Source: Niastella populi (GTDB taxonomy: Bacteria > Bacteroidota > Bacteroidia > Chitinophagales > Chitinophagaceae). Taken from it: 64,000 bases of DNA. Both the position numbers and the translations under genes were made by a program. Shown here one piece after another: positions 5,736 to 56,766 of this stretch; the stretch's first letter is position 1, and each line of letters opens with the position of its first letter. The DNA is taken from NCBI RefSeq assembly GCF_002078015.1, contig NZ_LWBP01000045.1:124001-188000 (forward strand), read 5' to 3'. Under the pieces are notes generated by a model, which searched no databases, was not told the origin of the DNA, and was given only the letters and a program-made list of their open reading frames with translations.

Positions 5736-5826
5736 GGCTGAAGGCTAAAGGCTAAAGGCAAAAGGCATAAGGCTGAAGGCAAAAGGCATAAGGCTAAAGG
5801 CTGAAGGCAAAAGGCTGAAGGCAAAA
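5736..5826. repeat. Thirteen tandem heptamers GGCNNAA
   Basis: Thirteen consecutive 7-bp units, all fitting GGCNNAA (GGCTGAA, GGCTAAA, GGCAAAA, GGCATAA), run without interruption from 5736 to 5826. The array begins at the end of the T run of the preceding terminator. Translations of it give a low-complexity heptad peptide that I do not regard as a gene. Confidence 0.95.
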
Positions 5827-5882
5827 TGCATTGGTGAAGCGGCGGGCTACATTTAATAAGGCTTTCGGAACGTTCGGAAAGA

Positions 5883-5910
5883 AGCGTTAAGCCTTCAGCG
5901 TTGAGCGTTC
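5883..5910. repeat. Four tandem heptamers AGCGTTN
   Basis: Units AGCGTTA, AGCCTTC, AGCGTTG and AGCGTTC follow each other at 7-bp spacing, about 55 bp after the GGCNNAA array and unrelated to it in sequence. Confidence 0.7.
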
Positions 5911-5924
5911 GGCTTAAAAACGAA

Positions 5925-5951
5925 TAGCCGGCAATTACTCATCGCCGGCTA
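5925..5951 (-). terminator. Terminator-like hairpin, minus strand
   Basis: TAGCCGGC (5925-5932) pairs with GCCGGCTA (5944-5951). Read on the minus strand it is followed by TTCGTTTTTAA. It could end the transcript of the T9SS-domain gene at 6176-6580, about 225 bp away. Between this hairpin and 6175 I see only a 26-codon ORF (5966-6046) of doubtful reality. Confidence 0.45.
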
Positions 5952-6175
5952 CTGAGGATACTGGAATGAACCAGAAAAAGTTGAAAAAAGCCAATAAGCA
6001 GGTGCAGGGAGTGATTAATAAAATCTTTGTGTTTCAGGGTACTTAATAAATAGGGAACGGATCAGGTTTTGACTCAACCGGATATATGGATTTTACTAAT
6101 TTCCCTGCAGCTTATTGGTTTATAAGTTGTGGTAGCAAAGAGCTTGTTTGTCAGCTGCCGTTGCCGGCAACCGGT

Positions 6176-6580
6176 TTATCGAATGATCACCTGGCCGTTC
6201 TCGAGCCGCTCGTCATCACTGAACACTTCGAACAGGTAATTGCCTTTTTCAATGTTGTCAATAACAGTAGTTTGCTTGTTTTTGATATTTGCCTGCCTTA
6301 TTAAATTGCCGGCAACATCGAATAAAAACAGCTGGTATTCTTTCTTCTCCGTTCCACGCACACTAAAGAACAGAACATTCTCTTCCGTAGCGGAATAAAG
6401 CTTTATTCTATGCTTTTTACTGGTAGTTTGCTTTTGAACCAGGATAGTATCTTGTGAATATGCAGGTACTGATAATGGACAACCGGCAGAAGCATTGCCT
6501 GCAAACAATATCGCTATTGCCAGCAGTGCGGGTAAAGTACGGATGTTAGAATGCTTTCTTACGGTTTCAAACGGATTCAT
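6176..6580 (-). CDS. Small secreted protein with a T9SS type A sorting-like C-terminus
   Basis: 134 residues from the ATG at 6580; a longer frame to 6616 exists but the shorter start gives a normal leader. A basic N-terminus and hydrophobic stretch (ALLAIAILFAGNASA) form a signal peptide. The last about 75 residues resemble the Por secretion-tail immunoglobulin-like fold, with FDVAGNLIRQANIKN, IEKGNYLFEVF and a final GQVIIR. Almost nothing remains between signal and tail, so this is either a minimal cargo or a protein in which the domain is the whole product. Function unknown. Confidence 0.65.
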   Translation of the reverse strand: MNPFETVRKHSNIRTLPALLAIAILFAGNASAGCPLSVPAYSQDTILVQKQTTSKKHRIKLYSATEENVLFFSVRGTEKKEYQLFLFDVAGNLIRQANIKNKQTTVIDNIEKGNYLFEVFSDDERLENGQVIIR

Positions 6581-6669
6581 GGGTTCCAAATTGGCTACCC
6601 GCCGCAGGCGGGCCAAATGTTTTCAAAAGGGTACGGATCAACAGTATCTTGAATACGGAATTGTAACAA

Positions 6670-7623
6670 TTAGAATCTTACCGGGCAACGTGTAGAGCTA
6701 TAGTCATTACCACCGCGGCCTAATCTGAAACCTAATTTCAGGTTAACAGAGAAGTATGCATCATTATTAGATGATGTACCTCTTTTCATGCCGGGAGTAT
6801 ATTGAGTAGTAGCACCATTGTTTCCGCTTTTGTTTGCCATTCTTTCAGCCAGTTGAGCCTGAGCCAAAGGCATGTTCGCATAGAAAACAGCAGGATCTAC
6901 ATAGGTAGTACTTACGTCATCGAGGTAATCGGTGAATGTAGTTCTGTGCAGCACTTCAAGCGCCAGATTTACTGTTTCGCTGAGGAAGTATTTTGCGCCA
7001 AAACCCAAAGGAATGTTCAGGCTTGTAAGTTTATATTCCTTACGGCCGGGGAACTGGGGTAAACCCTGTCCTTCGGTATGTAAAGGTCTCAGATCAACCC
7101 ATTCTTTGGTCAGCGGATCGGTACCTTGCGGATTGAATTTGAAATAGCCGATACCACCTACGAGGTATGGTCTCAGTCTTCCGATAACATCGCTGGGATC
7201 GTCTTCAAGAAAAACGGTAGGATAGATCTCTGCCAGTAACATGCCTTCGGTTATCCGCGAACGGAAGTTGGAGTTACGGTATTTGCGGGCTTCTTCAAGA
7301 CCGCCTTTACCTTTAATAACGGCATCATCACCTTCAATGGTTCCCCTGTTGATAGCTAATCTGAAACCCAGCCACTCATTCGGCTGGTAAGAAAGATAGC
7401 CACCAAAAATGAATTTGGTCATCGGGAAGTTATTGTCCTTGATGAACTTGGTACCTTTTCCGGCGTTACCACCGAGGTCGCCGAGGAAGTTGGAAGGTCC
7501 AAAAGAAACGCCAGCTTCGAAGACGGAGGAACCTTCAGTCTGGCCAAAAGAAGAAATGCAACTACTTGCACTTACCAGTAACAACAAGCTACACCTCCTT
7601 ACAGAGTGTAAAAATTGTTTCAT
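6670..7623 (-). CDS. DUF6089-like outer-membrane beta-barrel protein
   Basis: 317 residues with a signal peptide (about 1-27, ending SSFGQ). The mature part is an outer-membrane barrel of the DUF6089 type: FEAGVSFGPSNFLGDLGG near the N-terminus, then alternating strands such as RLRPYLVGGIGYFKFNP and NLALEVLHRTTFTDYLDDV, ending in a Phe. The DDVSTTY segment after DYLD is typical of this family. It lies upstream of the small T9SS-domain gene on the same strand, with about 90 bp between. Function not known beyond outer-membrane location. Confidence 0.78.
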   Translation of the reverse strand: MKQFLHSVRRCSLLLLVSASSCISSFGQTEGSSVFEAGVSFGPSNFLGDLGGNAGKGTKFIKDNNFPMTKFIFGGYLSYQPNEWLGFRLAINRGTIEGDDAVIKGKGGLEEARKYRNSNFRSRITEGMLLAEIYPTVFLEDDPSDVIGRLRPYLVGGIGYFKFNPQGTDPLTKEWVDLRPLHTEGQGLPQFPGRKEYKLTSLNIPLGFGAKYFLSETVNLALEVLHRTTFTDYLDDVSTTYVDPAVFYANMPLAQAQLAERMANKSGNNGATTQYTPGMKRGTSSNNDAYFSVNLKLGFRLGRGGNDYSSTRCPVRF

Positions 7624-7770
7624 TGAATATCAGATTTAGTTTTCAGACGGTCAGAGAATTCCGGCGCTAAAATAGTAAACGCCAGTCACACATACAATAA
7701 ACGCAGAATTGTTTGTTTCTTGTGTGCAGCATTTAAAAAATATCCAAATTAATGTTCGGATGTGGTGTTT

Positions 7771-8229
7771 TTACTTATTAAATGGTAAAAACATCTTAAT
7801 ATGTTCAATCCCATCTTCTATATAGATGTCGCTACACTGTTGAAATCCCAATGATGTGTAGAAATTACGGAGGTAAAATTGCGCACCGATAGTGATCGTA
7901 GATTTCCCCAGCACTTCGTATGTAGTACGAATGGAGTAGTTCATTAGTAGTTTTCCTATGCCTGCATGTCTTACTTTCGGCGAGGTGACCACACGGCCGA
8001 TCGACTGTTCTTCATAGGAAATTCCTGCGGGCACCAGCCTTGTATAACCGGCTAACAGCTCGTTTTGCCAGCACATTACATGAATGCATACCTGATCTTT
8101 GTCATCTGCATCGAGGAAAACACAATTTTGTTCAACTACAAATACCTCACTGCGTAGTTGTAAGATCGCGTACAGCTCATGCGGTGTGAGTTCGCTGAAT
8201 GGTTTGTGTATAAAGGTTATATGGTTCAC
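7771..8229 (-). CDS. ElaA-like GNAT family N-acetyltransferase
   Basis: A GNAT acetyltransferase of the ElaA group. After the start, FSELTPHELYAILQLRSEVFVVEQNC matches the ElaA N-terminal region, and RHAGIGKLLMN is the acetyl-CoA pyrophosphate loop (R/Q-x-x-G-x-G/A). The frame is open back to 8313, but the upstream start there is a GTG inside a palindromic repeat. The GTG at 8229 gives the length seen in the family (152 residues) and is preferred. It follows rarA on the same strand with the palindrome in the gap. The acetyl acceptor is unknown. Confidence 0.8.
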   Translation of the reverse strand: MNHITFIHKPFSELTPHELYAILQLRSEVFVVEQNCVFLDADDKDQVCIHVMCWQNELLAGYTRLVPAGISYEEQSIGRVVTSPKVRHAGIGKLLMNYSIRTTYEVLGKSTITIGAQFYLRNFYTSLGFQQCSDIYIEDGIEHIKMFLPFNK

Positions 8230-8285
8230 CTGTACTGGTAGTTGGTTTAAAGTAATATATGGTAAGTGAAAGTTTGTAAGTTGCA

Positions 8286-8316
8286 GGTGTGCCAGGTTTT
8301 CAAAACGTGGCACACC
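8286..8316. repeat. Dispersed palindrome, copy B
   Basis: GGTGTGCCA (8286-8294) pairs with TGGCACACC (8308-8316). The inner GTTTT/AAAAC also pairs around a single central base, so the element is an almost perfect 31-bp palindrome. It lies between the rarA stop and the start of the acetyltransferase gene. Confidence 0.8.
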
Positions 8317-8320
8317 TTAA

Positions 8321-9580
8321 TCAATATCCATACTTGTCCTTCCAGAAGTTTTTCAGGAATTTTCTCAGCTCATCTTCGCGGGCATTATGGCCGGGGTTGA
8401 AAAATTTACGGCCGGTAAGCGGCGGCGGCAAATATTCCTGGCTCGAAAAATTGCCTTCATAATCGTGCGAATATTTATATCCTTTACCGTAATCGAGTTT
8501 TTTCATGAGGCCGGTGGGCGCGTTGCGAATATGCAGGGGTACCGGCAGGTCGCCGTGCTGGCGAACGGCGGCAATGGCGTCGTTGATGGCAACATAGGAG
8601 GCATTGCTTTTAGGAGAAGTGGCCAGGTAAATGGCGCATTGCGATAATATAATGCGGGCTTCGGGATAACCTATTTTATTTACCGCCTCAAATGTGGCAT
8701 TGGCCATAACCAGGGCCGTGGGGTTGGCGTTGCCGATATCTTCACTGGCCAGTATCAACATACGGCGGGCGATGAATTTTACATCTTCGCCACCTTCGAT
8801 CATACGTGCCAGCCAGTATACGGCACCGTTTGGATCGCTGCCGCGCATGCTTTTTATAAATGCGGAAATGATATCGTAATGTTGTTCGCCGCTTTTATCG
8901 TATAAAGCAATGCGTTGCTGCGCAATTTCCATTACTGCGTCATCGGTGATAATGGCTGTTTGGCCCATGGTATCGACAACCAGCTCGAACAGGTTCAATA
9001 ATTTGCGTGCATCGCCGCCGGAAATGGTGATGAGGGCAGTCGTTTCTTTCAGCTCTATGTGTTTTTGTTGCAGCTGCGCATCTGCGGCCATGGCATGTTG
9101 CAGCAGGCCAACCAGGTTGTCTTCCTGTAATGGTTTCAATACATAAACCTGACAACGACTAAGCAGGGCGCTGTTCACTTCAAAGGAGGGGTTTTCGGTG
9201 GTGGCGCCTATCAGCGTAACGACACCTTTCTCTACGGCGCCCAGCAGCGCATCCTGTTGTCCTTTATTGAAACGGTGTATTTCATCGATGAACAAGATGG
9301 CGCGCTCTTTTTCTCTGGCCTCTGCAATTACCTCCCGTACTTCTTTTACCCCTGCGCTTATGGCGCTGAGCGTATAAAAGGGAACCTGTAAGGTGTGCGC
9401 TATAATATTGGCAATGGTGGTTTTTCCTGTGCCGGGCGGTCCCCATAAGATCATCGAGGGAACTTTGCCCTGCTCTATGGCTGTACGCAAAATGCTTCCT
9501 TTGCCGGTGAGGTGTTCCTGACCTGCCAGCTCATCCAATGTCGTTGGGCGTAACCGTTCTGCAAGTGGTGTTGCTTCCAT
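8321..9580 (-). CDS. rarA: Replication-associated recombination protein A (AAA+ ATPase)
   Basis: 419 residues from the ATG at 9580 (a TTG nine codons upstream is the alternative). RarA/MgsA/WRNIP1 family clamp-loader-like ATPase acting at stalled replication forks. [23 protein letters not shown] is the conserved opening. Walker A is GPPGTGKTT, Walker B is [20 protein letters not shown], and sensor 1 lies in [10 protein letters not shown]. The C-terminal tetramerisation domain has [19 protein letters not shown] and the [16 protein letters not shown] block. Identification is secure. Confidence 0.95.
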
Positions 9581-9648
9581 AATTATGGGAGGAAAAATGC
9601 TGCTCAAGTTAATGAAATTTTACCTGATGACTATTTGATCGGGCATCG

Positions 9649-10149
9649 TTACGGCTTTTGGTCGAACTGATCGTACCAGGTATTGAGCGTATTTTCATGA
9701 ATGAACCGCCGTAACCTGAACATGCCGGCCAGTGTAACAAGGTGTATTATGAAAATGAACCATGAGATCAGCAGGAGGCCCGTCATCATATACCAGGTAT
9801 AGCCTTTGCGCATTTCGGGATCAAAGACGAAGCGCACCATCCACCAGTCGTTCACCACGCGGGCAAACAGGAAGGCGACCAGTAAAAAGTTGATCAGGTA
9901 TAAAACGTTGAATATACGTTTTTGCTTATCAGATAAGGGCGTATCGGGATAATTATAGTTGAGGATCGACAAGCCGTGATAAACGAACATGAACACCGCG
10001 GTATAGGCAAGCATGTTTATGAAATACAACGCAGGGTTACTTCTGGAAAACAACATGCCTAAGGCCTGCATGCCCGAGAATGCCACCAGTATCAGCTGCA
10101 CAATGCACAACACCCTGAATACCTTCCATAAAACTGTGAATTCTTTCAT
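9649..10149 (-). CDS. Four-helix integral membrane protein of unknown function
   Basis: 166 residues with four hydrophobic segments: about 10-32, 42-60, 81-100 and 122-146. A short basic loop lies between the second and third (PDTPLSDKQKR), and the C-terminus is polar. The pattern resembles the DUF2975/DUF2871-like small membrane proteins of Bacteroidota, but I cannot name a family with confidence. It lies between aspS and rarA on the same strand, about 70 bp before the latter's start. Confidence 0.65.
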   Translation of the reverse strand: MKEFTVLWKVFRVLCIVQLILVAFSGMQALGMLFSRSNPALYFINMLAYTAVFMFVYHGLSILNYNYPDTPLSDKQKRIFNVLYLINFLLVAFLFARVVNDWWMVRFVFDPEMRKGYTWYMMTGLLLISWFIFIIHLVTLAGMFRLRRFIHENTLNTWYDQFDQKP

Positions 10150-10338
10150 CGGCTAAAATTAGCATTTTATACGAAGCTGTTTTCCTGTTGCAGACGTGCT
10201 TCGGCCCTTACTATTTTAACCAGCCGAAAACTGCCGGTTACCTGTATAGATATTGTAATTACCAGGTTTATCAGTGAAGAACGTTATAATCCCGACGGTC
10301 GCATTCGCTCTGGGATACAGAAAATTCTTCATAAAAGA

Positions 10339-10369
10339 AAAGGCCTCCTGGTTTAGTTGGGAGGCCTTT
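10339..10369 (-). terminator. Intrinsic terminator of aspS
   Basis: AAAGGCCTCC (10339-10348) and GGAGGCCTTT (10360-10369) form a 10-bp perfect stem. Read on the minus strand it is followed by TTCTTTTATG. It lies about 20 bp after the aspS stop. Confidence 0.8.
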
Positions 10370-10389
10370 AAAATTATTTAAAAAATAAT

Positions 10390-12216
10390 CTATTGCAAAT
10401 TCAACTTTATCTGTAATTCGTCGAATTGTTTTTGATCGATGGCGCTGGGGGCATCGAGCATTACATCGCGGCCGCTGTTGTTCTTGGGGAACGCAATAAA
10501 GTCGCGAATGCTTTCGCTGCCGCCTAAAATAGCGCACAAACGGTCGAACCCGAAGGCAATACCGCCGTGTGGTGGTGCGCCGTATTCAAACGCGCCCAGC
10601 AAAAAGCCGAATTTATGCAGTGCTTCTTCCTGGCTCATACCAAGGGCCGCAAACATTTTCTCCTGCAGGTCGCGCTGGAAGATCCGGATGGAACCGCCGC
10701 CGATCTCATTTCCATTCAGCACCATATCGTACGCATTTGCCTTGATGTTGGCATATGGGTGTTTCAGGTATTCGGCAGCATTGTCGATCACCGGGCTGTT
10801 TTTGATCATGATGTCGATATGATCGGGTTTCGGTGAAGTGAAAGGGTGGTGACGGGCTACCCAGCGGTTATCATCTTCGGCGTATTCGAACAGCGGGAAG
10901 TCGAGCACCCACAGTAATTTAAACTCATCTTTTTTACGCAGGCCAAGCCGTTCGCCCATTTCAAGACGCAGTTCGCTCATGGCTTTGCGGGTTCTTTCTT
11001 CTGCACCGGCCAGTATCAGCACCAGGTCGCCGGCTTTGGCGCCGGCTGCATCGGCTATGGCTTTCAGTTTATCTTCTGTAAAGAATTTATCTACGCTGCT
11101 TTTATAGGTGCCATCAGTATTGCATTTTATAAATACCAGCCCCTGCATTCCTATCTGCGGGCGTTTTACCCACTCCGTAAGTTCGTCGGTTTGTTTGCGG
11201 GTGTATTCTGAACATCCGGGCACGGCAATGGCCAGCACGGTTTCCGCTTCTTTGAAAACTTTAAAGTCGGAACCGGCGATGAGGTCACCAGTAGCCGGTA
11301 GTTTACCGTCTTTGGTAAAGGCCGATTTTATATTGAGCAACTGCATGCCGAAGCGAATGTCGGGTTTGTCGTTACCAAACTGCCACATGGCTTCTTCCCA
11401 GCTCATGCGTTGTACTTTTTCGGTAACCTCTATACCTTTCACCGCTTTGAAAATATGTTTTACCATGCCTTCGAACATGTTCAGGATGTCTTCCTGTTCA
11501 ACAAAGGCCATTTCACAATCTATCTGGGTGAATTCCGGCTGGCGGTCGGCCCGCAGGTCCTCATCGCGGAAACATTTTACAACCTGGTAGTAACGGTCGT
11601 ACCCGCTCACCATCAGCAATTGTTTAAATGTTTGCGGCGATTGCGGCAATGCATAGAACTGACCGGGGTTCATGCGGGAAGGAACTACAAAGTCGCGGGC
11701 GCCTTCGGGTGTTGATTTAATAAGGAAAGGCGTTTCGATATCCATAAAATGGTTATCGTGCAGGTAATTGCGGGCTGCGCGGTTAACGGAATACCGCAGC
11801 TCCAGGTTTTTCTTCACCAGGTTCCGGCGCAGATCGAGATAGCGGTATTTCATGCGCAGGTCATCGCCGCCATCGGTATCGTCCTGGATGGTAAAGGGCG
11901 GTGTTACCGATTTATTAAGAATGGAAAACGAGGTTATTTTGATCTCGATATCGCCGGTTGGCAGGTTGGGATTCTTATTACTGCGTTCGCTCACCACACC
12001 TGTGGCCTGCAGTACGAATTCGCGGCCCAGGGGCTGCTGATCGAGCTGACTGTTCAATTCTTCCCCCAATAACAACTGGGTAATGCCATAACGGTCTCTC
12101 AGGTCAATAAACGTAATACTGCCAAATTTTCTAATGGTTTGCACCCAGCCGGCAAGCGTTACCTGCTGCCCGGTTTGTGCTATCCGTAATTCTCCACAGG
12201 TATGAGTTCTGTACAT
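10390..12216 (-). CDS. aspS: Aspartate--tRNA ligase
   Basis: 608 residues, the bacterial type. An N-terminal OB-fold anticodon-binding domain (about 1-130; [22 protein letters not shown]) is followed by a class II catalytic core interrupted by the bacterial GAD insertion (about 300-420). Motif 2 is [18 protein letters not shown] and motif 3 is GIAFGFDRL. It charges tRNA-Asp in the cytoplasm. The ATG at 12216 starts [11 protein letters not shown] as in orthologues. A consensus promoter lies upstream at 12285-12316 and a terminator directly downstream, so the gene is probably a single transcription unit. Confidence 0.97.
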
Positions 12217-12532
12217 TCCTATAATGTTTTAATAATCTGATAAGCTAACGAGTGTTATAAGGTCCCCGCCCGCTGCGAGGGAGGCAAAGGTAATTCAAAA
12301 CGGGTATGCTTTCAAAGCAGGGGAAGGGCGGTGGAACATTTTCCAGCACATTGATAATCAGATTCCCGTTCCGCTACCTGTGCGGGCATTCTGTTTTTGG
12401 CATTTTATTTAGGTAATTTTTTTTATTTTTCTGACCAGATGTTATTGTTTTGCAGCGTCTAAGAGCGGAAAACAGGTAAAAGAACTGAACAGACGGGTAA
12501 CAAAAACAATAGCTCAAGTACCAATATCATAT
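12217..12532. other. 316-bp divergent intergenic region
   Basis: This region separates aspS (minus) from the first MtfA-like gene (plus). Apart from the aspS promoter I see no ORF, RNA-like structure or array. The right half is AT-rich and should hold the promoter of the peptidase gene, but I could not find a clean TTTG / TAnnTTTG pair. Confidence 0.5.
12285..12316 (-). promoter_or_regulatory. Bacteroidota-type promoter of aspS
   Basis: Minus strand: -33 TTTG (12316-12313) and -7 TACCTTTG (12292-12285) with a 20-bp spacer, an exact match to TTTG / TAnnTTTG. The leader would be about 60 bases. Confidence 0.65.
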
Positions 12533-13360: not shown

Positions 13361-13568
13361 CGGAAATATAATTTTACAGGCAGGCTCTTTCTTTTTTAAA
13401 ATTTTCTTTATATTTTGTAGCCGTATTGAACTCTCTAATGATCACCACCCTTTAATTTATCTCCCCCAGGATCCCTGAAAGCCGGAAATAGATCCATCTT
13501 CTCTTTTGAAAACCATAGTTTCTGTTGATCTGATCCCGTACCAGTCAATTACGAAAAAACAGAGCATT

Positions 13569-14369: not shown

Positions 14370-14504
14370 TGCACTATTTTACTTTTTTAGCCTGATATGA
14401 GTTTTGTGTTTTAAAGTGTCGGATGTGGACGTAAGAACTTTTGCATCCGGCATTTTTTTTTGTATTACCTTCTATTATGCATTTCATTTAAACATCCCCG
14501 ATCA

Positions 14505-16121: not shown

Positions 16122-16172
16122 AAGGTGTGCCACACTTGCTTTCAACGATACCAGGAAAGTGTGGCACACCTT
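16122..16172. repeat. Dispersed palindrome, copy C (longest stem)
   Basis: AAGGTGTGCCACACTT (16122-16137) and AAGTGTGGCACACCTT (16157-16172) form a 16-bp perfect stem with a 19-base loop. It lies between the oxidase gene and the terminator of the alpha-2-macroglobulin gene. Confidence 0.9.
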
Positions 16173-22376: not shown

Positions 22377-22820
22377 TAGGCCAAATTTTATACAAGTTAT
22401 AATAAGTTGACGAGTTAACAGGTTGACGTGTTAACAAGTTGACAAGGTCTGTTCAAAAGATCAGTATCACCGGGTTTATATAAGATACAGGGTGTAAGGA
22501 ATAAGAGGCCGGAGAAGTCCGATATTTCTGCTTTCGCTTTTGTTTTCAGCCTGGTACAGCCACGTCTTTTTCTGACTTTTCTTTTCTGAACTTCGTTCAT
22601 ACCTGTTTTGATGCCGGTACCGGATAATTTACATACATGAAAAAGTTAAAGTGCTTTACAAAAGAAGAGGGCAAAAGCAATGCCGGGTCGCTTATATATG
22701 GTAATATTAAATATAAGTTTTATTCCAAACAGTGTGCAACGTAAATACTGGCCTTTTCGTTCTATACATCAAAACCTGCCGGCAGGGCAGGTACCCTTTT
22801 ACCCGCACAAAACACCCAAC
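22377..22820. other. Intergenic region with an octamer array
   Basis: This 444-bp gap lies between the divergent alpha-2-macroglobulin and DUF4476 genes. The left end holds the NNGTTRAC array; the rest has several short frames that I judge not to be genes. I saw no clear promoter pair. Confidence 0.45.
22404..22443. repeat. Five tandem octamers NNGTTRAC
   Basis: AAGTTGAC, GAGTTAAC, AGGTTGAC, GTGTTAAC and AAGTTGAC run head to tail at exactly 8-bp spacing. The complementary unit (GTYAAC) forms the array at 55966-55996. Confidence 0.85.
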
Positions 22821-23601: not shown

Positions 23602-23649
23602 AGGTGTGCCACATTTGTACGCAGCAGCGAAAGCAAATGTGGCACACCT
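23602..23649. repeat. Dispersed palindrome, copy D
   Basis: AGGTGTGCCACATTTG (23602-23617) pairs with CAAATGTGGCACACCT (23634-23649), a 16-bp perfect stem starting five bases after the DUF4476 stop. The inner arm is ACATTTG instead of ACACTT on both sides, so the change was compensated. Confidence 0.88.
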
Positions 23650-24661: not shown

Positions 24662-24701
24662 GGCTGAATATGCTAATGTGATAATTAGCTAATGTGCTAA
24701 T
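24662..24701. repeat. Five tandem octamers NNGCTAAT
   Basis: GGCTGAAT, ATGCTAAT, GTGATAAT, TAGCTAAT and GTGCTAAT at 8-bp spacing. The same unit forms the array at 56643-56682. The spacer down to 24892 also has a looser ATCAGC/CATTA pattern ending at the mlaF stop. Confidence 0.8.
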
Positions 24702-24892
24702 AACGGGATGTAAATACGCAAACGTTGCCGGGAGCAACCGGCAACATATAATGGTCTGTTTGTAGCTTTGATGAAAGCGGCAAAACCGGGTATCACCGGA
24801 AATTAATTTTTATAAAGCGGGCAAGTGTAGTCTTACGGGAGAAGGCGAAGCTGTATTCAATCAGCTCATTGGCATATTACCAAATCAGCACA

Positions 24893-26564: not shown

Positions 26565-26798
26565 GATATTTAAGCAATAGTGTAAAAATACAGCTTAACG
26601 ATGAAAAACAATAGTTTATGATATAAGGTTCAAAAACGGCAAACGTGAAAAGCCCTGGCAACAGCTTCTGTTACGGAAACAGGCTTCAGGCTAAGGCATT
26701 GGCAATGATCGTTAATACCTGTACCCCAGCTGAGCCCGGGGCAAGCGCTGAAACCCGTAACCTGAAACAGTTAAATATAGTGCCTGAAGAATGTTCGC

Positions 26799-26847
26799 CG
26801 GAAACCGGTACCCGGCGCCTGGCAACCAGCAACCGGCACCCGGTAAC
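26799..26847. repeat. Seven tandem heptamers, CGGYAAC-like
   Basis: CGGAAAC, CGGTACC, CGGCGCC, TGGCAAC, CAGCAAC, CGGCACC and CGGTAAC run at 7-bp spacing; the last base overlaps the stop codon of maeB. The CGGYAAC unit recurs at 44398-44425 and 53586-53613. A CGGCAAA-CGTGAAA pair at 26637-26650 repeats the units of the 55625 array. Confidence 0.82.
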
Positions 26848-33527: not shown

Positions 33528-33562
33528 GCTGCAAGCCACACGCTGCAAGCTGCAAGCAGAAC
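33528..33562. repeat. Five tandem heptamers GCTGCAA
   Basis: GCTGCAA, GCCACAC, GCTGCAA, GCTGCAA and GCAGAAC at 7-bp spacing. The array starts seven bases after the GntR stop codon and lies inside the operon, so it should be transcribed. Confidence 0.75.
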
Positions 33563-36220: not shown

Positions 36221-36287
36221 TTACGCAGTCATTTGTTGTGTTTTTATAGCCATGAAACGCAAATAAAAAGCGCACATAGCTTTTTAT

Positions 36288-36315
36288 GAAGTAGGAGGTA
36301 GGAAGTAAGATGTAA
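36288..36315. repeat. Four tandem heptamers GAAGTAR, left half of an inverted pair
   Basis: GAAGTAG, GAGGTAG, GAAGTAA and GATGTAA at 7-bp spacing. An array of the complementary pattern lies 52 bp to the right. Confidence 0.75.
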
Positions 36316-36367
36316 GAAGAGTCTTTTATTGCTGACTCAAGTTTATTTTTTAACCTCAAAAAATCGT

Positions 36368-36395
36368 ACCTCTTACTTCCTGCTTCTTACTTCAG
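36368..36395. repeat. Four tandem heptamers RCTTCYT, right half of an inverted pair
   Basis: ACCTCTT, ACTTCCT, GCTTCTT and ACTTCAG at 7-bp spacing. This is the inverse complement of the array at 36288, so the transcript of either strand could form a long imperfect hairpin around the 52-bp centre. Confidence 0.72.
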
Positions 36396-44265: not shown

Positions 44266-44267
44266 GT

Positions 44268-44288
44268 GGTCAATGGTCAATGGTCAAT
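44268..44288. repeat. Three tandem heptamers GGTCAAT
   Basis: Three perfect copies of GGTCAAT starting two bases after the cytochrome stop codon. Confidence 0.8.
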
Positions 44289-44397
44289 GATGAAGGTTAC
44301 AGGTTTATCGTACCAGTAACATGGTGCCGGTTACCGGTTCGTGCGTGCCAGGCTCTTAATGCAGAACACTTCAGGCTGCAGCTATAAATTTGAGGCC

Positions 44398-44425
44398 CGG
44401 CAACCGGTAACCGGCAACTGGTTAC
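44398..44425. repeat. Four tandem heptamers CGGYAAC
   Basis: CGGCAAC, CGGTAAC, CGGCAAC and TGGTTAC at 7-bp spacing; further loose CGGTAAC and GGTTACC copies lie around 44330 and 44450. Otherwise the 278-bp spacer between the cytochrome and DUF1080 genes holds no gene. Confidence 0.75.
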
Positions 44426-44543
44426 CTTAATCTTGTATTTCCGGGTAACCGGTAACAGCTTGCAGTTGAACCCTGAAACAGCAACCCGCATCCGTTAATT
44501 GACAATTATCCTGTAACTTTCAGCGATAGAAACACTATCCGCT

Positions 44544-45347: not shown

Positions 45348-45495
45348 GTTGACCAGTTGACGGGGGTAATGAGTGAACGAGTGGGAAATACAGGGTTGAA
45401 AAGTTGATGGAGTTGATAATGTTGATAAAGGGAAAGGCAGCCAGCTGTATGCTTGAAGCTATCAGCCGAAGCCGATGGACATACCCTTATTCAAC

Positions 45496-45537
45496 TTCGA
45501 CATTTGAAATTCGACATTCGACATTCAATATTCGGCT
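45496..45537. repeat. Six tandem heptamers TTCGACA-like
   Basis: TTCGACA, TTTGAAA, TTCGACA, TTCGACA, TTCAATA and TTCGGCT at 7-bp spacing. Confidence 0.8.
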
Positions 45538-45569
45538 GTTCGGTATTTTCTCATTTCCCTGTATTCCAC

Positions 45570-45611
45570 TTCAACATTCAATATTGAACATTTAATATTC
45601 GATATTCCCTA
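45570..45611. repeat. Six tandem heptamers TTCAATA-like, abutting a stop codon
   Basis: TTCAACA, TTCAATA, TTGAACA, TTTAATA, TTCGATA and TTCCCTA at 7-bp spacing. The last unit overlaps the stop codon of the methyltransferase-like gene at 45609. The unit is close to that of the 45496 array. Confidence 0.8.
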
Positions 45612-48007: not shown

Positions 48008-48012
48008 GGGGT

Positions 48013-48360: not shown

Positions 48361-48440
48361 AGGGGGGAAGGGGTTTTAAGGATTCCAAAATACCATCCTT
48401 TGCGGGCATTTGCAAGCAGCAGAAACAAAATAAAATGCAA

Positions 48441-48480
48441 AAAACAAAAAGGTGGGCCACCTGTTGAGCGTGACCCACCT
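48441..48480 (-). terminator. Intrinsic terminator of secA
   Basis: GGTGGGCCAC (48451-48460) and GTGACCCACC (48470-48479) form a 10-bp stem with one wobble pair. On the minus strand it is followed by TTTTTGTTTTTTGC. The arms loosely resemble the dispersed palindrome but are GC-richer, and this one has a proper T run. Confidence 0.8.
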
Positions 48481-48505
48481 TTATATAGTGAATGAACGTT
48501 ATGTA

Positions 48506-51500: not shown

Positions 51501-51838
51501 AAGGCTTCGGGATGAATTTCTTTCAGGATCTCCTCAATCTGTTTATCGCGGTCTTTGATAAGGGCATCTACCTGCTGGTAAATGGCATCTTTGCCTACGA
51601 TATCGCTAAACGGCAGTTCTTCGGCCTGTTTATTCAGATCGGCGATCTCGTTGTCAATTTTCTGGAGGTGCGCTTTGATACGGGCCCTGAACTCCTGGGT
51701 CTTGTTACGCAACTGATCGTTTGAAAGCGACTGGTAAGCGGCAAAGTTCTTATTGATCTGATCTACGAACGGCTGAATCAGCTTAATATCCTTTTCCGAC
51801 TTGCTTCCTCCGAACATTTTTGAAAGAAAACCTAACAT
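48506..51838 (-). CDS. secA: Preprotein translocase ATPase SecA
   Basis: 1110 residues, longer than Escherichia coli SecA (901) as usual in Bacteroidota because of insertions in the first nucleotide-binding and preprotein-binding regions. Walker A MATGEGKT (about 191-198), DEAD-like [50 protein letters not shown] and the helical wing and scaffold ([29 protein letters not shown]). The C-terminal zinc-binding SEC-C motif [16 protein letters not shown] binds SecB or the ribosome. It drives protein export through SecYEG. Confidence 0.97.
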
Positions 51839-52336
51839 GATATAGCGGTTAATTATTTTAAAAGATTACAAATTTAAGGTCGGTCAAAAAAGATGCTACA
51901 CTTTGGCAGCGAGCCAATTTGACAGGGACGTCAAAGGTAAGAAAAAGCAGGGAGTTGGCAGCTACGGAAGTCGATGGTTTGCAGGCAATAATTAACCATT
52001 TGGTGTGAATTCGGGGTTAACACATGGAGTTTAAGAAAATGTGTTTACCGCAGAAGGTGATATTGCCAGAAGGGAGAAGGGATGCGGTTCCCCGGCTAAA
52101 AGCACCCAGATGAATGAAGTAAGGCTCTCTGATAAGCAGGCGCAGCCTGCATTGTACACCAACCTTCCCTTGGGATTGCACCGGAAAGCCGGGGCGCCGG
52201 TGCAATTCGGATGCAATTCCAGTGCTATTATAGAGCAGTTGTTACCGTATTAACCACCATATAAGTGCAGGTGGAAGCATCATGGCCTGCCATTAGTTTC
52301 CCTTCCGGGATAGCCATTTATATGATAATGTGTTGG
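51839..52336. other. 498-bp intergenic region with a stable hairpin
   Basis: Upstream of secA and downstream of dprA, both minus. A TAAATTTG element (51876-51869) fits TAnnTTTG for secA but lacks a -33 partner. ATTGCACCGG (52175-52184) and CCGGTGCAAT (52197-52206) form a perfect 10-bp stem with a 12-base loop; there is no T run, so it is not a standard terminator. Short frames over this part on both strands (52017-52253) look accidental. Confidence 0.5.
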
Positions 52337-53449
52337 TTACACTAATTGATACATTTTGCCGGGCAGGGCCTGAACAATGTTCTGTATTTCGAGATTGAGG
52401 ATGGCGGCTGCAATGGAACTGGTGCTAAGGCCGCAACGCAGGTTCAGTTCGTCGATATGCACCCGCTGTTTTTCGTTCAGTATTTCAACGATGGTCTTTT
52501 CTTCTTCATTCAGGTTCACAAAAAGTTCTTTTTGAGGCTGAATATTTTTTGCAACCGGTTGTTCCCAGCCTAAACTTTCTGCCAATTCATGTGTTTCGGT
52601 AAGCAAAATGGCTTTATTGTTCTTTATAAGGGCGTTACAACCTGCACTTTTGGCATCGGTGATCTTACCGGGGAAGGCAAAAACATCACGATCATACCCA
52701 ATTGCCAGCTCTGCCGTGATCATACTTCCGCCTTTTACGCCTGTTTCAATTACCACAACGGCATCGCTCATACCCGCAACAATGCGGTTACGCACGGGGA
52801 AATGATGTTTTTCTGCAGTTACATCGCTATGAAATTCGGTAAGCAACCCGCCGCCCTGTTTTATCATGTCTTTGGCCAAACCGGTATGTTCTGCAGGGTA
52901 CAGCGAATCGAGCCCATGCGCCAGTACGCCTACGGTTTGCAGGTTATGTTTGAGCGAGGTTTTGTGTGCAATGGCATCAATGCCGAAAGCGAGCCCGCTT
53001 ACGATCAATACTTCATACCCGGCCAGTTCCTTTACCAGTTTTTCAGTAATGTTCTTGCCGTATGTCGAATTGTTGCGGGTACCTATTACCGCTACCACCC
53101 GCGGGGCATTGAGGTTGGCTTCACCGCGGTAAAACAGCATGGTGGGCGAGTCGTAACAATGCAGCAGCCGTTGCGGGTATTGGGGCTGGTTTATGAACAG
53201 CGGTTTTATTTTGTACTTTTCAATGAACGCGATCTCTTTTTCAAGGGAAGCGAACTGGTTGAATGATTTTATTCGGCGGGCGCGTACTGTTCCTATGCCT
53301 TCGGTTTTTTCAAGTTCGGCAATGCGGGCTTTGAAAATGGCTTCTGCTGAATTGAATTGTTGTATCAGCAGTTTGGCATGTACACAGCCGATTTGTGGCA
53401 CCTGCGTTAAGGCAAGCTGGTATAGCAGATCGTTGGTTATCGTAGTCAT
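52337..53449 (-). CDS. dprA: DNA-processing protein DprA
   Basis: 370 residues. An N-terminal helix-hairpin-helix (about 10-70) is followed by a Rossmann-like DprA core (about 75-290) with RVVAVIGTRNNSTYGKNITEKL, the nucleotide-fold GLAFGIDAIAHKTSL, and the AGMSDAVVVIETGVKGGSMITAELAIGYDRDVFAFPGKITD block. A C-terminal winged helix (about 305-370) ends the protein. DprA loads RecA on incoming single-stranded DNA in natural transformation. No other competence gene is close; the downstream spacer holds the hairpin described at 51839-52336. Confidence 0.94.
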   Translation of the reverse strand: MTTITNDLLYQLALTQVPQIGCVHAKLLIQQFNSAEAIFKARIAELEKTEGIGTVRARRIKSFNQFASLEKEIAFIEKYKIKPLFINQPQYPQRLLHCYDSPTMLFYRGEANLNAPRVVAVIGTRNNSTYGKNITEKLVKELAGYEVLIVSGLAFGIDAIAHKTSLKHNLQTVGVLAHGLDSLYPAEHTGLAKDMIKQGGGLLTEFHSDVTAEKHHFPVRNRIVAGMSDAVVVIETGVKGGSMITAELAIGYDRDVFAFPGKITDAKSAGCNALIKNNKAILLTETHELAESLGWEQPVAKNIQPQKELFVNLNEEEKTIVEILNEKQRVHIDELNLRCGLSTSSIAAAILNLEIQNIVQALPGKMYQLV

Positions 53450-53541
53450 GGTTAATGGTAAATATTCTATTAATCCATAATCTAAGATAAGATGTTTCGG
53501 GGTATTAAGAAGCTGTTGCCGGTTACCACTTGCCGGGCGAT

Positions 53542-53577
53542 AATAAAAAAAGCCATCCCGCCTGAAACGAGATGGCT
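53542..53577 (-). terminator. Intrinsic terminator of the PorE-like gene
   Basis: AGCCATC (53551-53557) and GATGGCT (53571-53577) form a stem. On the minus strand it is followed by seven T residues and ATTATCG. Confidence 0.8.
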
Positions 53578-53585
53578 GTATTTAC

Positions 53586-53613
53586 CGGTAACCGGTAACT
53601 GGTAACCGGCGAC
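53586..53613. repeat. Four tandem heptamers CGGTAAC
   Basis: CGGTAAC, CGGTAAC, TGGTAAC and CGGCGAC at 7-bp spacing, between the terminator and the PorE-like gene's stop. Same unit as at 44398 and 26799. Confidence 0.8.
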
Positions 53614-53656
53614 TATTTTTGGGATGTTGTATTTTCAACAGACAGTCAATTCTGAA

Positions 53657-55567
53657 TTACTGGCTTATCACCTGCAACTCCGTTCTCCTGTTCAGCGCTT
53701 TGCCTTCTTCGGTGGCATTATCGGCAACGGGTTTGGTAGCGCCGAACCCTTTAAAGGTAAGGCGTGCCGGTTCTATGCCTTTGCCTGTAAGGTATTTTAC
53801 AACGGCTTGTGCGCGGTTGTTCGAAAGAGTGAGGTTATCGGCGGCTTTACCGATATTATCGGTATGCCCGCTGATCTGCACCTTCAGGGTTGGGTTTTCT
53901 TTCATGAGCTGGAATATATTATCCAGTTCGATGGTCGATTCAGGTTTCAGATCGAATTTACCAAGGTCGAAGAAAATATTCTTCAGCACTATGCTGGCAT
54001 TGGCTTCAATGGGTTGCAAAGGAATATCGATATTGTAAGTAGAATCGGGCGCTTTCTGGCTCAACGGGAAATTTTCTGAGAAGAACAGGTAGCCCTTTCT
54101 TTTTACATTGAACGCATAGTCTTTTCCTACCGGTAAGGTGATAAGGTAATTACCGGTGGCATCGGTTTGAACCCGGCTTATAACACCGAGCGAAGCCAGG
54201 TCGGTAAGCTCAACGGCAGAAGGCAATCCTTTCTGTGTTTTCTTATCAAACACTTTTCCTTTTACCCACAAGGTTCTGGCCGGCCGAAGATCTTCACGTA
54301 ACTGGAAAGAATACAGGTCGAGCCCGCCGCGGGTGTCGCTGCGGTCGCTGGTATAGTAAGCGGTTTTGCCGTTGGCTGCAATAACCAGGCTGCCTTCGTT
54401 TTCGATGGTATTTACCGGGTAACCGAGGTTAACGGGTTTACTCCAGCCCTTACCCTGTTTGCGGGCTAAAAAAAGATCGGTGCCGCCATAACCCAAATGA
54501 CCGCTCGATGTAAAATACAGGGTTTGGTTATCGGCATGAATAAACGGCGCATTTTCGTCACCGATAGTGTTTATTTCGGGGCCCAGGTTCTCTGGTTCGC
54601 TCCAGCGGCCATTGGGCAACTGATGGCAAACGTACAGGTCGTGGCCGCCATAACCGCCAAGGCGGCCGCTGGCAAAATACAGGTCGCGTTTATCGGGCGA
54701 AAGGCTGGGCGCCGATTCCCAGGCCTCGGTATTTATTCTGTTACCCATATTCTCGGGTTTGCTCCAGCCTTCGGGTGTGAGGTAAGAGATATACAGATCG
54801 CAACTGCCGAAGCCATAAGGGAAATTGCAACCGGTGAATATCAGCCATTGCCCATCCTGCGAAATATTCTGTGCGCCTTCGTTCTGGTTTGAGTTGATAT
54901 CGCCGGGTAAGGGTTGCGCTTTAGTCCAGTGCCCGTTCTCGAATTTCGATCCATAAAACTCTTCATTGCCGTTTACCCGGCGCGTAAAAATGAATTCCTT
55001 ATCGTCGATGGTGAGCGTTGGAAAATATTCCAGGTGTTTGCTGTTGATGCTGTCGCCCATGTTTTGCGGTTCGAAGCGGTAGCCATTCAATGGGTGCTGA
55101 TTGCTATAGTCGATCGCAAACTGGTAGGTTTTACGGCGATAGTTGCCGGCTTTAATGCTTTGTGCATTGAGGTTAGGTATGGAAAGAAATTCGTCGACGG
55201 CCTTTAACGCCTTTTCAAACTCGCCCTGGGCTGCGAGGTTGATGGAGTAGGGCAGGTTGTAATCTTTAAACCAGTTGCTGTCAATGGCCTTGCTTTTTTC
55301 ATAGTATTCAATGGCGCTCTGGTGGTTCTTTTGTTCAAAGTACAAACCTGCAATTGACAAATAGGCCTCGAGGTAACGCGGTTCTATTTTTATGGCGTCC
55401 TGCAATGTTTTAATGCTTTCGGTGTAGTCGCCGTTCATGGCAATGCCGTATGCTTTTTCGAACAGGGCCTTTGCTTTTTTGCTTATTTTGTCAGGATCGT
55501 ACTGCGCTTTCGCCGCTGAGCAAATAAGGGCGGCGCACATGGATATTGTAATTAATTTTTTGATCAT
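53657..55567 (-). CDS. PorE-like OmpA protein (TPR, beta-propeller, carboxypeptidase-regulatory and OmpA domains)
   Basis: 636 residues from the ATG at 55567 (MIKKLITISMCAALICSAAKAQ); the frame continues upstream without a leader. The domain order is tetratricopeptide repeats (about 25-130; EKAYGIAMNGDYTESIKTL, YLEAYLSIAGLYFEQKNHQSAIEYYEKSK), a PD40/WD40-like propeller (about 150-420; repeats such as GWSKPENMGNRINTEAWESAPSLSPDKRDLYFASGR), a carboxypeptidase-regulatory-like fold (about 430-510) and an OmpA domain (about 530-636; ISGHTDNIGKAADNLTLSNNRAQAV). This is the order of PorE of the type IX secretion system, which links the outer-membrane complex to peptidoglycan. Unlike PorE I see no lipobox. 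Bacteroidota have many paralogues, so the T9SS role is likely but not certain. Confidence 0.82.
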   Translation of the reverse strand: MIKKLITISMCAALICSAAKAQYDPDKISKKAKALFEKAYGIAMNGDYTESIKTLQDAIKIEPRYLEAYLSIAGLYFEQKNHQSAIEYYEKSKAIDSNWFKDYNLPYSINLAAQGEFEKALKAVDEFLSIPNLNAQSIKAGNYRRKTYQFAIDYSNQHPLNGYRFEPQNMGDSINSKHLEYFPTLTIDDKEFIFTRRVNGNEEFYGSKFENGHWTKAQPLPGDINSNQNEGAQNISQDGQWLIFTGCNFPYGFGSCDLYISYLTPEGWSKPENMGNRINTEAWESAPSLSPDKRDLYFASGRLGGYGGHDLYVCHQLPNGRWSEPENLGPEINTIGDENAPFIHADNQTLYFTSSGHLGYGGTDLFLARKQGKGWSKPVNLGYPVNTIENEGSLVIAANGKTAYYTSDRSDTRGGLDLYSFQLREDLRPARTLWVKGKVFDKKTQKGLPSAVELTDLASLGVISRVQTDATGNYLITLPVGKDYAFNVKRKGYLFFSENFPLSQKAPDSTYNIDIPLQPIEANASIVLKNIFFDLGKFDLKPESTIELDNIFQLMKENPTLKVQISGHTDNIGKAADNLTLSNNRAQAVVKYLTGKGIEPARLTFKGFGATKPVADNATEEGKALNRRTELQVISQ

Positions 55568-55965
55568 CAGATTTGCTTTTCGTGAATCGGCAATCCCCGG
55601 CTTCATCGGGGCAGGCTGTGAATTCGTGAAACGGCAAACGTGAAACGTGAAAAGCCCTATGTTCGTGCCTGATAACTTTTTTGCACTTATTATAAAGCCA
55701 ATCCTGAATCTGTAGTGCTCGCTTCGCCTGCTACATATAATTTTAACGCGTTAACCGGTAATTAGTCAACTTCCTGTCAAAATCAGTCCAACTTTAAAGC
55801 TTAAAGATAAAAAATGATTAAAGTTTTCACATAAAACTTGTTTATCGCCTTTTAAGATGCTGATTTGGGCAGAAAAGTTTATTAGAAACTGTTATAAATA
55901 ACCCAATGGTGTATTAACGCACAATAGCGCCGGGAAATTAATCTGGGTGTTAAGTGAGGGAAACC
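55568..55965. other. Intergenic region upstream of the PorE-like gene
   Basis: About 400 bp. It contains the CGTGAAA heptamer array and a small hairpin CCCCG (55595-55599) / CGGGG (55607-55611). AT-rich; no gene or clear promoter pair recognised. Confidence 0.4.
55625..55652. repeat. Four tandem heptamers CGTGAAA
   Basis: CGTGAAA, CGGCAAA, CGTGAAA and CGTGAAA at 7-bp spacing, followed by AGCCCT. The string CGGCAAACGTGAAAAGCCCT also occurs at 26637, 29 kb away. Confidence 0.82.
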
Positions 55966-55996
55966 CTGTCAACCAGTTACCTGTTAACTCGTCAAC
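55966..55996. repeat. Short octamer array GTYAAC, abutting the queE stop codon
   Basis: CTGTCAAC, CAGTTAC (one base short), CTGTTAAC and TCGTCAAC run directly into the queE stop (55997-55999). It is the complement of the 22404 array. Confidence 0.75.
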
Positions 55997-56617
55997 TCAC
56001 GGAACGTGAATGTACTTGTGCAGCTGCAGCGAAAATTCCCAACGTGGGTTGGCCTTGATATAATCGATGATCAGCGGCGTTACCGCAGCCGATTTACTCC
56101 ACTCGGGCTGCAGATACAATTTACAGGCGGGCGAAACCAGGGCGGCATATTTTTCGGCCCATTCGAAATCGCTTTTATTGTATACTACTACTTTCAGTTC
56201 ATTGGCGAGGGGAAGAATTTCGGGCAGGGGCGCCTTGAACTTTTTGGGCGAAAGGCAGATCCAGTCCCACGAACCGCTTACCGGCCAGGCGCCGGAGGTT
56301 TCAATATTGGTTTGAAAGCCGGCTGCATGCAGTGCATCGGTAAGCGCATCGAGGTTATGCATCAGCGGTTCGCCGCCGGTAATGATCGCCAAACGGCCGG
56401 GTTCGGCGCTGGCGCCGGCCACTATTGTTTCAATGGTTTGTAAGGGATGTTTCGATGCTTCCCAGCTTTCTTTTACATCGCACCACACACAGCCTACATC
56501 GCACCCGCCGAGGCGAATGAAGTAAGCGGCCCTTCCCTGATGGTAACCTTCGCCCTGCAGGGTGTAGAAGGATTCCATTACCGGATATTGAATCGTATCT
56601 ATAGAAGCTTTTGTCAT
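55997..56617 (-). CDS. queE: 7-carboxy-7-deazaguanine synthase (radical SAM)
   Basis: 206 residues. ESFYTLQGEGYHQGRAAYFIRLGGCDVGCVWCD carries the substrate-binding QGEG and the radical-SAM cluster ligands in the QueE spacing C-x3-C-x2-C. ITGGEPLMH and NIETSGAWPV follow as in the family, and SPKKFKAPLPEIL is the conserved SPK block. It makes 7-carboxy-7-deazaguanine, the precursor of queuosine and related 7-deazapurines. No other queuosine gene is in the window. Confidence 0.92.
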   Translation of the reverse strand: MTKASIDTIQYPVMESFYTLQGEGYHQGRAAYFIRLGGCDVGCVWCDVKESWEASKHPLQTIETIVAGASAEPGRLAIITGGEPLMHNLDALTDALHAAGFQTNIETSGAWPVSGSWDWICLSPKKFKAPLPEILPLANELKVVVYNKSDFEWAEKYAALVSPACKLYLQPEWSKSAAVTPLIIDYIKANPRWEFSLQLHKYIHVP

Positions 56618-56642
56618 CGATGCAAAGTTCTGGAAAATAAGA

Positions 56643-56682
56643 TAACCAATGTGCTAATTTGCCAATTAGCTAATGTGCTAAT
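56643..56682. repeat. Five tandem octamers NNGCTAAT
   Basis: TAACCAAT, GTGCTAAT, TTGCCAAT, TAGCTAAT and GTGCTAAT at exact 8-bp spacing. The unit is the same as that of the array at 24662. Confidence 0.85.
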
Positions 56683-56726
56683 GCCTTGAATTTGGAGAAG
56701 CCTGCTATTAATCGGATCTTCCGATT

Positions 56727-56766
56727 GTGCCAATTAGCCAATTAGCATATTATCACATCAACTAAT
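56727..56766. repeat. Five tandem octamers, second NNGCYAAT block
   Basis: GTGCCAAT, TAGCCAAT, TAGCATAT, TATCACAT and CAACTAAT at 8-bp spacing, ending five bases before the folD stop codon. Confidence 0.75.

Follow-up and report, generated by a model that had tools for sequence, protein, structure and literature searches.

Tandem arrays of 7- and 8-nt words as inverted, transcription-polar elements at gene ends in Niastella populi and its relatives

The window analysed here is a 64,000-nt stretch of Niastella populi DNA (contig NZ_LWBP01000045.1, positions 124001-188000, from an 8.6-Mb assembly labelled G000), whose intergenic gaps carry tandem arrays of 7- and 8-nt words. These arrays are dispersed gene-end elements: runs of a short word, often arranged as inverted pairs around an inner part of ~50 nt, with the G-rich strand first along transcription. 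The original prediction had listed 17 arrays, and 16 of them were recovered within ~10 nt of their predicted starts using Tandem Repeats Finder (TRF), the printed sequence and our own scan. The seventeenth, an 8-nt stretch of undefined strand at 55966-55995 with a weak inverted match to 55743-55761, was called by neither TRF nor our scan and is too degenerate to count.

Inverted pairs lie at 5730/5891, 36287/36364, 44316/44402, 53515/53592 and 56649/56733; two others, at 24671/24860 and 55743/55977, are weaker. In the convergent gap 5687-6175, after the NT5C gene, ~13.6 copies of GGCNNAA form a first arm on the plus strand (5730-5830; TRF, sequence and own scan). Its inverted partner consists of four copies of AAGCGTT on the minus strand (5882-5920; TRF and own scan), with 5730-5759 matching 5891-5920. 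A GAAGTAG array (36287-36317, plus strand; TRF and own scan) is likewise the first arm of a pair in a convergent gap; its partner at 36364-36394 (minus strand; TRF) is 84% complementary, with 46 nt between. Past a cytochrome c gene, a GGTCAAT array (44267-44289, plus strand; TRF and own scan) begins 1 nt after the stop codon. An inverted-pair search then places the first arm of a pair, GGTTACCGGTT, at 44316-44339 (plus strand), and the second arm is the CGGYAAC array at 44397-44426 (minus strand; TRF), 88% complementary across 62 nt. The gap between DprA and the PD40/OmpA gene reads along a minus-strand transcript. Here, a CCGGTAA array comes first (53584-53613, minus strand; TRF and own scan) and the second arm last (53515-53536, minus strand). 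Nested between these arms (53515-53613) is an intrinsic terminator-like hairpin of 12 pairs with a T-run (53551-53577, minus strand). In the QueE-FolD gap, the 8-nt array NNGCTAAT (56648-56683, plus strand; TRF and own scan) faces GCCAATTA (56729-56758, minus strand); 56649-56674 and 56733-56758 are 85% complementary, with 58 nt between.

Two convergent-gap arrays of undefined strand, TTCGACA (45496-45533; own scan) and TTCAATA (45570-45607; own scan and congener comparison), share a gap that carries arrays in several species. A CCGGCAA-like array of undefined strand (26799-26843; TRF, sequence and own scan) ends 3 nt from the 3' end of a minus-strand malic-enzyme gene. The remaining arrays are GCTGCAA (33528-33557, plus strand; TRF, sequence and own scan), CGTGAAA (55625-55652, plus strand; TRF and own scan), the 8-nt NNGCTAAT/NNGATAAT (24667-24701, plus strand; TRF and own scan; weak inverted partner at 24860-24890, score 11) and, in a divergent gap, the 8-nt GTTRACNN of undefined strand (22405-22446; sequence and own scan). 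TRF reports this last array and the one at 45570 with periods 16 and 14, where our scan gives 8 and 7. No Rfam family reached its gathering score across the window, and a relaxed threshold over 53400-56800 returned two MIR828 rows only, far below gathering.

Our detector scores +1 for a match at the given lag and -1.5 for a mismatch, and segments were kept at a score of at least 9, 11 or 12. In the 12.6 kb of intergenic DNA of the window (score at least 9) it finds 11 segments of period 7 and four of period 8, where 40 dinucleotide shuffles give 0.1 for either period. Two segments in all have a period of 4-6 or 9-12. The peak sharpens in a 744-kb sample of the same genome (the window and contigs C1, C209 and C242; 117.5 kb intergenic, 626 kb coding). 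At a score of at least 12, intergenic counts for periods 3 to 15 are 2, 0, 0, 9, 85, 36, 5, 0, 4, 2, 1, 74 and 0. Presumably most of the 74 segments of period 14 are period-7 arrays read at the doubled period, the two not being separated here. One shuffle set of this sample gave zero at every period, and the coding DNA gave five segments of period 7 and two of period 8, so that the predicted intergenic peak at 7-8 (85 and 36, against 0-9 at periods 4-6 and 9-13) and the near-absence from genes are both borne out. On contig C1 (400 kb, same threshold) the intergenic counts are 51 at period 7, 23 at period 8, five at period 9, one at 4-6 and three at 10-13; three dinucleotide-shuffle sets yield at most 0.3 per period and coding DNA one segment at each of periods 7 and 8. 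Four 50-kb pieces of E. coli K-12 contain no segment at periods 4-14. The period is nevertheless less strictly fixed at 7 or 8 than first proposed, since some arrays have period 9 and a separate class has period 11.

Gene ends, inverted pairs and direction

The arrays of the genus are gene-3'-end elements. Across nine genus genomes, array density is 1.77 per kb in convergent gaps, 1.36 in tandem gaps and 0.36 in divergent gaps, and among gaps of 120-300 bp, 21 of 34 convergent ones carry arrays as against 2 of 56 divergent ones. Within tandem gaps (143 arrays), 48 arrays lie at most 30 nt from the upstream stop and 17 at most 30 nt from the next start.

Searching each array's own gap for a reverse-complement partner (score at least 12) succeeds for 74 of 221 arrays, compared with 13 in a complement-only control and 21 when another array gap is searched; direct second copies in the same gap are also frequent (62). 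Counted by gap, an inverted pair overlaps an array in 91 of 214 array gaps. Paired arrays have a median arm of 25 nt and a median inner part of 51 nt, both with a wide spread. The signature of a T-run hairpin terminator is present in the nested core at 53551-53577 and, by eye, in some other cores. Predicted folds of orthologous gaps range from z +0.2 to -6.5 over 19 folds, the lowest being one with a nested terminator. Palindromy of the units themselves was considered and set aside: palindromic units are not enriched (0.346 against 0.38 shuffled for period 7, 0.318 against 0.473 for period 8), and neither are palindromic 4-mers.

Reading along the gene that ends in a gap, the first array is G-rich and later arrays are C-rich. 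Within 40 nt of a stop in convergent gaps, G-rich and C-rich arrays number 57:5 (of 63). In tandem gaps the ratio is 67:17 (of 88) over the first 60 nt and 28:84 (of 125) further on (Fisher p 1e-14), and the 53 tandem arrays near the next start have C 0.27 and G 0.15. Divergent gaps stand at 13:11 (of 24). Taking only the array nearest the stop in each gap gives 106:21 (of 132), in the same sense in eight of nine species and level at 4:4 in congener G003. The 5' arms of array hairpins behave alike, with 47:4 (of 56) in tandem, 23:3 (of 26) in convergent and 6:2 in divergent gaps, compared with 64:64 (of 151) for array-free hairpins of the same genomes, for whose selection score and loop limit were set slightly less strictly. 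The 60 nt that follow stops in array-free gaps are 196:185 (of 411). Arrays with no detectable partner keep the same polarity, 70:13 near stops and 15:46 later. Polarity follows the direction of transcription, a direction that a replication-only process has no reason to know.

Related genomes and shared words

Gene order in the window is largely conserved in eight congeners (loci L234-L257), and DprA, PD40-OmpA, QueE and FolD occur together in ten of ten genus genomes. This provides a nine-species synteny block whose gaps vary in presence, unit and arm matching of arrays, so that origin and function become directly testable. The gap 45348-45608 carries arrays in six of nine species (score at least 11), with the units TTCGACA/TTCAATA, TACGAAG, AAGTAGC, GTTGCAG, AGTTGACA and AAGTAAG. 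At the malic-enzyme end (26565-26846) arrays are again found in six of nine species at this threshold, under which the G000 copy falls. The QueE-FolD gap has detected arrays in four congeners and, in G003, by eye a hairpin with no detected array. For the FolD protein of the window, the nearest named matches come from Chitinophagaceae and other Bacteroidota, in a comparison that may lack records of this or a very near genome. In the DprA-PD40 gap, array arms are lacking around the terminator of congeners G004 and G009, and other congeners carry other words; G001 has there a perfect array of ~10 copies of TCAATGG (L202).

Arrays recur in a few of 26 gaps far more than expected by chance (sum of squares 222 against 134, or 158 when weighted by length; 0 of 2000 permutations reach it). 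Within one gap, comparisons of units reveal differences of more than one base in 103 of 139 cases at period 7 and 14 of 28 at period 8. The two arms tend to match better within a species than across species. In the QueE-FolD gap they change jointly, GTGATAAT going with ATTATCAC and GCTGAT with ATCAGC. With an equal loop limit for own-species and cross-species pairs, the mean arm score is higher within species than across them in 11 of 12 array gaps (10.6 against 8.6, p 0.003).

Periods 7 and 8 are both present in all nine same-genus genomes sampled, one per species and that of the window included (a further genome, G008, was used in ortholog comparisons and enters no density count). Period-7 density ranges from 0.8 to 12.6 arrays per 10 kb of intergenic DNA, and the eight congeners together (1.36 Mb) hold 129 period-7 and 52 period-8 segments at a score of at least 12. 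Two of them, G001 (5, 4 and 4 at periods 7, 8 and 11) and G004 (6, 2 and 4), have no clear 7/8 peak over period 11. Among seven non-genus relatives, G013, G015, G011 and G024 have no period-7/8 arrays, G010 and G019 two each, and G012 six. A weaker peak appears across Bacteroidota, where 70 of 80 loci (157 kb intergenic; ten loci shorter than 8 kb were dropped, and one titled Lachnospiraceae, L131, was kept) give 35 segments of period 7 and 13 of period 8, compared with four at periods 4-6 and ten at 9-13. Here, an inverted partner is found for 17 of 49 arrays as against four in the complement control. The arrays are thus a real and strong feature of the genus and a weaker trace in the phylum.

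The units had been described as mostly unrelated, which does not hold. Units at different loci are within one mismatch in 6.0% of period-7 pairs and 9.7% of period-8 pairs, compared with 2.2% and 0.9% for shuffled units. Sharing is 8.3% within and 5.0% between species at period 7, and 12.0% and 8.7% at period 8. The vocabulary is nonetheless large, with 70 distinct 7-nt consensus units among 142 arrays. Two ideas about how words are built were dropped. A core-plus-spacer unit of 5-6 fixed and 2 free nucleotides looks persuasive by eye but gave inconsistent results in the column test; and a stop codon in every frame, as the cause of lengths 7 and 8, does not fit the many words that by eye have no stop codon.

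Some sequence has been copied between separate gaps, as in stretches of 144 bp at 88% and 110 bp at 75% identity and in one core that occurs in three gaps in both orientations. Shared non-array sequence is found in 37 of 79 G000 array gaps, a figure that overstates copying, many of the alignments being unmasked weak array words. The segment 5700-5930 of the window has 51 matches in its own genome and the GTTTRTG element 89, both counts including the query itself and several pieces per place.

Possible origins and known repeats

The near confinement of the period peak to intergenic DNA, together with units that vary among gaps and often, at one gap, among species, fits one kind of process, and to this extent the single generating process first suggested is retained. 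We propose that this process is oriented by transcription and acts on DNA through slippage and fold-back, an explanation that we hold tentatively and at somewhat less than an even chance. It draws on the period peak, the gene-end location, the pairing, the polarity, the recurrence, the arm matching and the copying described above. Arrays would be made at the DNA level where transcription ends. Here, a G-rich non-template strand may promote hybrids of RNA and DNA or the stalling of a fork, after which the replication machinery would slip by 7-8 nt at a time. This step may equal the stretch of duplex held by a polymerase, a hypothesis that PMC4692102 credits to its reference 33. By folding back on itself, the machinery would write the same word inverted in the other arm, and some finished elements would later be copied into other gaps. 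If this is the case, most arrays are probably not terminators under selection but by-products that are tolerated at the ends of transcription.

Several points weigh against this proposal. Its mutational steps are inferred, and indel lengths between species show no overall peak at 7-8, the species being too divergent for clean indel steps. The permutation test for recurrence takes no account of shared ancestry. Units are within one mismatch in 36 of 139 (period 7) and 14 of 28 (period 8) same-gap comparisons, as against 141 of 1169 and 7 of 43 between different gaps, which indicates that part of the recurrence is inheritance. An excess of own-species over cross-species arm scores, albeit a smaller one, is also seen in gaps with arrays in at most one species (11 of 15; 7.9 against 7.2, p 0.015), and an earlier arm test that set no loop limit on cross pairs favoured own-species pairs in only 6 of 12 array gaps (p 0.57) and 3 of 15 others. 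In degree of structure, inner parts do not clearly exceed outer flanks (of 61 inner parts 26% have z below -2, of 56 flanks 14%; p 0.23); the difference is a trend, and the idea that arms grow outward from a structured core was not retained. Variable positions inside units are slightly concentrated for all period-7 variants (z -5.6) and not for variants that occur at least twice. Outside the genus, 47 of 55 arrays lie in tandem gaps (0.39 per kb), and convergent gaps, with two arrays in 24.7 kb (0.08 per kb), are not richer than divergent ones (six arrays, 0.12); in the other Bacteroidota polarity is also weaker, 23:11 near stops and 3:11 later. Finally, gene limits come from our own codon-usage caller rather than from annotation, and array counts pool related loci and orthologous blocks, so the tests are not fully independent.

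The presence of inverted arms at gene 3' ends poses the question whether the arrays are selected RNA hairpins, whose arms pair at the end of the mRNA, aid termination or block exonucleases, and are kept in register by compensatory changes. Stable predicted folds in several orthologous gaps, some with a nested terminator, and arms that change together between species are in line with this. However, selection on the RNA should favour G.U pairs, and in the arms of tandem gaps G.U is not favoured over A.C (46:42; 17 hairpins have more G.U and 18 more A.C), so selection for an RNA fold is not supported; the ratios are 20:13 in convergent and 5:14 in divergent gaps. Arrays with no detectable partner are equally polar, the second arm lies past the nested terminator where there is one, and the G004 and G009 terminators do without array arms. 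We consider RNA hairpins an unlikely explanation.

Plain replication slippage, with a polymerase that prefers 7-nt steps and selection that purges coding DNA and promoters, would account for the period peak, the nearly empty neighbouring periods and the nearly array-free coding DNA. It predicts neither inverted pairs, nor polarity along transcription, nor a vocabulary common to loci and species. None of the features that had gone unnoticed in the original prediction follows from plain slippage, namely inverted pairing, a position at gene 3' ends, polarity with the G-rich strand first, the return of arrays to the same gaps and a common vocabulary. As a complete account it is improbable, although slippage may supply the 7-8-nt step within another process.

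Repetitive extragenic palindromic (REP), BIME and REPIN elements combine gene-end placement, inverted pairs and dispersal. The present arrays have these three properties in common with them, but are tandem 7/8-nt words with no fixed palindrome. Elements of the REP kind are the subject of PMC3116915 and PMC2817692. The arrays might be mobile elements of this type, moved by a REP-associated tyrosine transposase (RAYT; Y1 transposase, Y1_Tnp, PF01797). In line with this, each of ten genus genomes has one strong PF01797 gene, and the relatives G015 and G024, with no PF01797 match, have no arrays in their 80 kb. In G000, the PF01797 gene (L111:1447-1902; G000:C145:137808-138143) carries an inverted pair of 7-nt arrays at its upstream end and lies, by eye, between open reading frames resembling DAHP synthase/chorismate mutase and dehydroquinate synthase. 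Among the non-genus relatives with a PF01797 match, however, the arrays number two in G010, none in G011, six in G012, none in G013 and two in G019, and match strength does not track them: it is strong in the array-free G011 and G013 and weak in G012. The diversity of words, in place of a single palindromic consensus, is a further argument against such elements, which the data do not support and which we regard as improbable.

The arrays might also be bound, as RNA or as DNA, by a repeat-recognising protein or by Rho, which would load on the C-rich later arm. Such a role would suit the C-rich, G-poor later arms and the recurrence of words across the genus, but is very unlikely given the many words, often different between species at one gap, the absence of any Rfam match in the window at gathering score, and the spacing of Rho sites, which is ~11-13 nt and not 7-8.

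The transcription-oriented slippage and fold-back process must also be set against known heptamers. Intergenic heptamers as a class are already known, and the present arrays are a variant of them that is new in its many words. A G3 quadruplex motif occurs on either strand in 3 of 318 arrays, a two-G motif in 65, and units with GGG or CCC number 17. With 315 of 318 arrays lacking G3 tracts, quadruplexes cannot be the common cause here. More generally, a pattern common to dozens of words excludes single-word explanations, such as quadruplexes, as a common cause in the genus. Cyanobacterial short tandemly repeated repetitive (STRR) heptanucleotides comprise few fixed words; the present arrays resemble them as heptanucleotide arrays and differ in their many words. 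Calothrix heptanucleotides are mentioned in PMC4692102.

The SPADE study describes heptamer periodic repeats as the most abundant between prokaryotic genes, their function being without a clear clue (PMC6344855), and heptamer-derived satellites have been reported (PMC6749651). In the available parts of these two accounts, the gene-end address, pairing and polarity of the present arrays do not appear. A further survey reports normal representation for most longer tandem repeats, apart from a few genomes in which intergenic repeats of 6-11 bp are extremely abundant (PMC4060949). In Bacteroidetes, for which no equivalent was thought to be described, TAACTGA direct repeats have in fact been reported in five members, some with other heptamers alongside (MacGregor 2015, PMC4679880). 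These are likewise heptamer direct repeats between genes. TAACTGA is one word that in Beggiatoaceae lies mostly a few nt before start codons, unlike the present arrays, which more often follow stops (48 against 17 of 143) and form inverted pairs. Our literature search, which had little reach into subscription papers, found no account of many-word, polar, paired arrays in Bacteroidota.

The closest likeness is with the GGGAATC and GGGGA(C/T)T heptamers of Xanthomonas and Nostoc, built on a single G-quadruplex word (Rehm et al. 2015, PMC4692102). The Xanthomonas repeats include 70 and 75 cases of two close repeats in convergent orientation, lie on average 28 nt from the 5'-side gene and 160 nt from the next, and are few between divergent genes. 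Both systems are intergenic, form inverted pairs on the gene-end side and place the G-rich strand downstream on the coding strand, which amounts to the same grammar in other words; unlike the single quadruplex word, the present arrays use many words of 7 and 8 nt. A repeat pattern that is long known but unexplained is here located at gene ends, shaped as inverted arms and oriented with the G-rich strand first. It is conceivable, although we think it unlikely, that all belong to one unrecognised class of gene-end element in at least three phyla (Bacteroidota, and those of Xanthomonas and Nostoc as described by Rehm et al.), independent of the word, of period 7/8, inverted and transcription-polar. 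Here, the end of transcription would prime slippage and fold-back with a step equal to a 7-8-nt hybrid. If so, the period would reflect an enzyme's footprint, and the arrays would record transcription ends in the genome.

Other dispersed elements

A separate class of intergenic arrays has period 11, in some gaps as inverted pairs, for instance TTCTTAGGGTT with AACCCTAAGAA. Examples lie at G000:C209:35801 and 35845 (L259), G009:C25 ~144894 and ~144935 (L079), G004:C3 ~109558 (L069) and G001:C1 ~40574 (L059). In the two species poorest in period 7 (G004 and G001), period 11 reaches 1.8-2.0 per 10 kb compared with 2.5-2.7 for period 7, in a comparison for which G001, G002 and G004 were grouped only after the counts were seen.

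Composite gaps form mosaics: their blocks consist of different 7/8-nt words, and AATACAG, often in two copies, links these blocks as a kind of punctuation. Such gaps are found at L025 (C1 gaps 177610 and 178875), L026-L027 (199629-200033), L031 (289130-289620) and L032 (306098-306767). Counted with its complement, AATACAG occurs 105 times in the 117.5 kb of intergenic DNA and 155 times in the 626 kb of coding DNA.

A dispersed palindrome, AGGTGTGCCACA / TGTGGCACACCT, is present in the window at 16122-16172 and 23602-23649 and in the C1 gap 337414-337871. Three of the four most over-represented intergenic 7-mers in this genome, GTGCCAC, GTGTGGC and GTGTGCC, come from such palindrome words. By its appearance, this palindrome is a REP-type or terminator element separate from the arrays.

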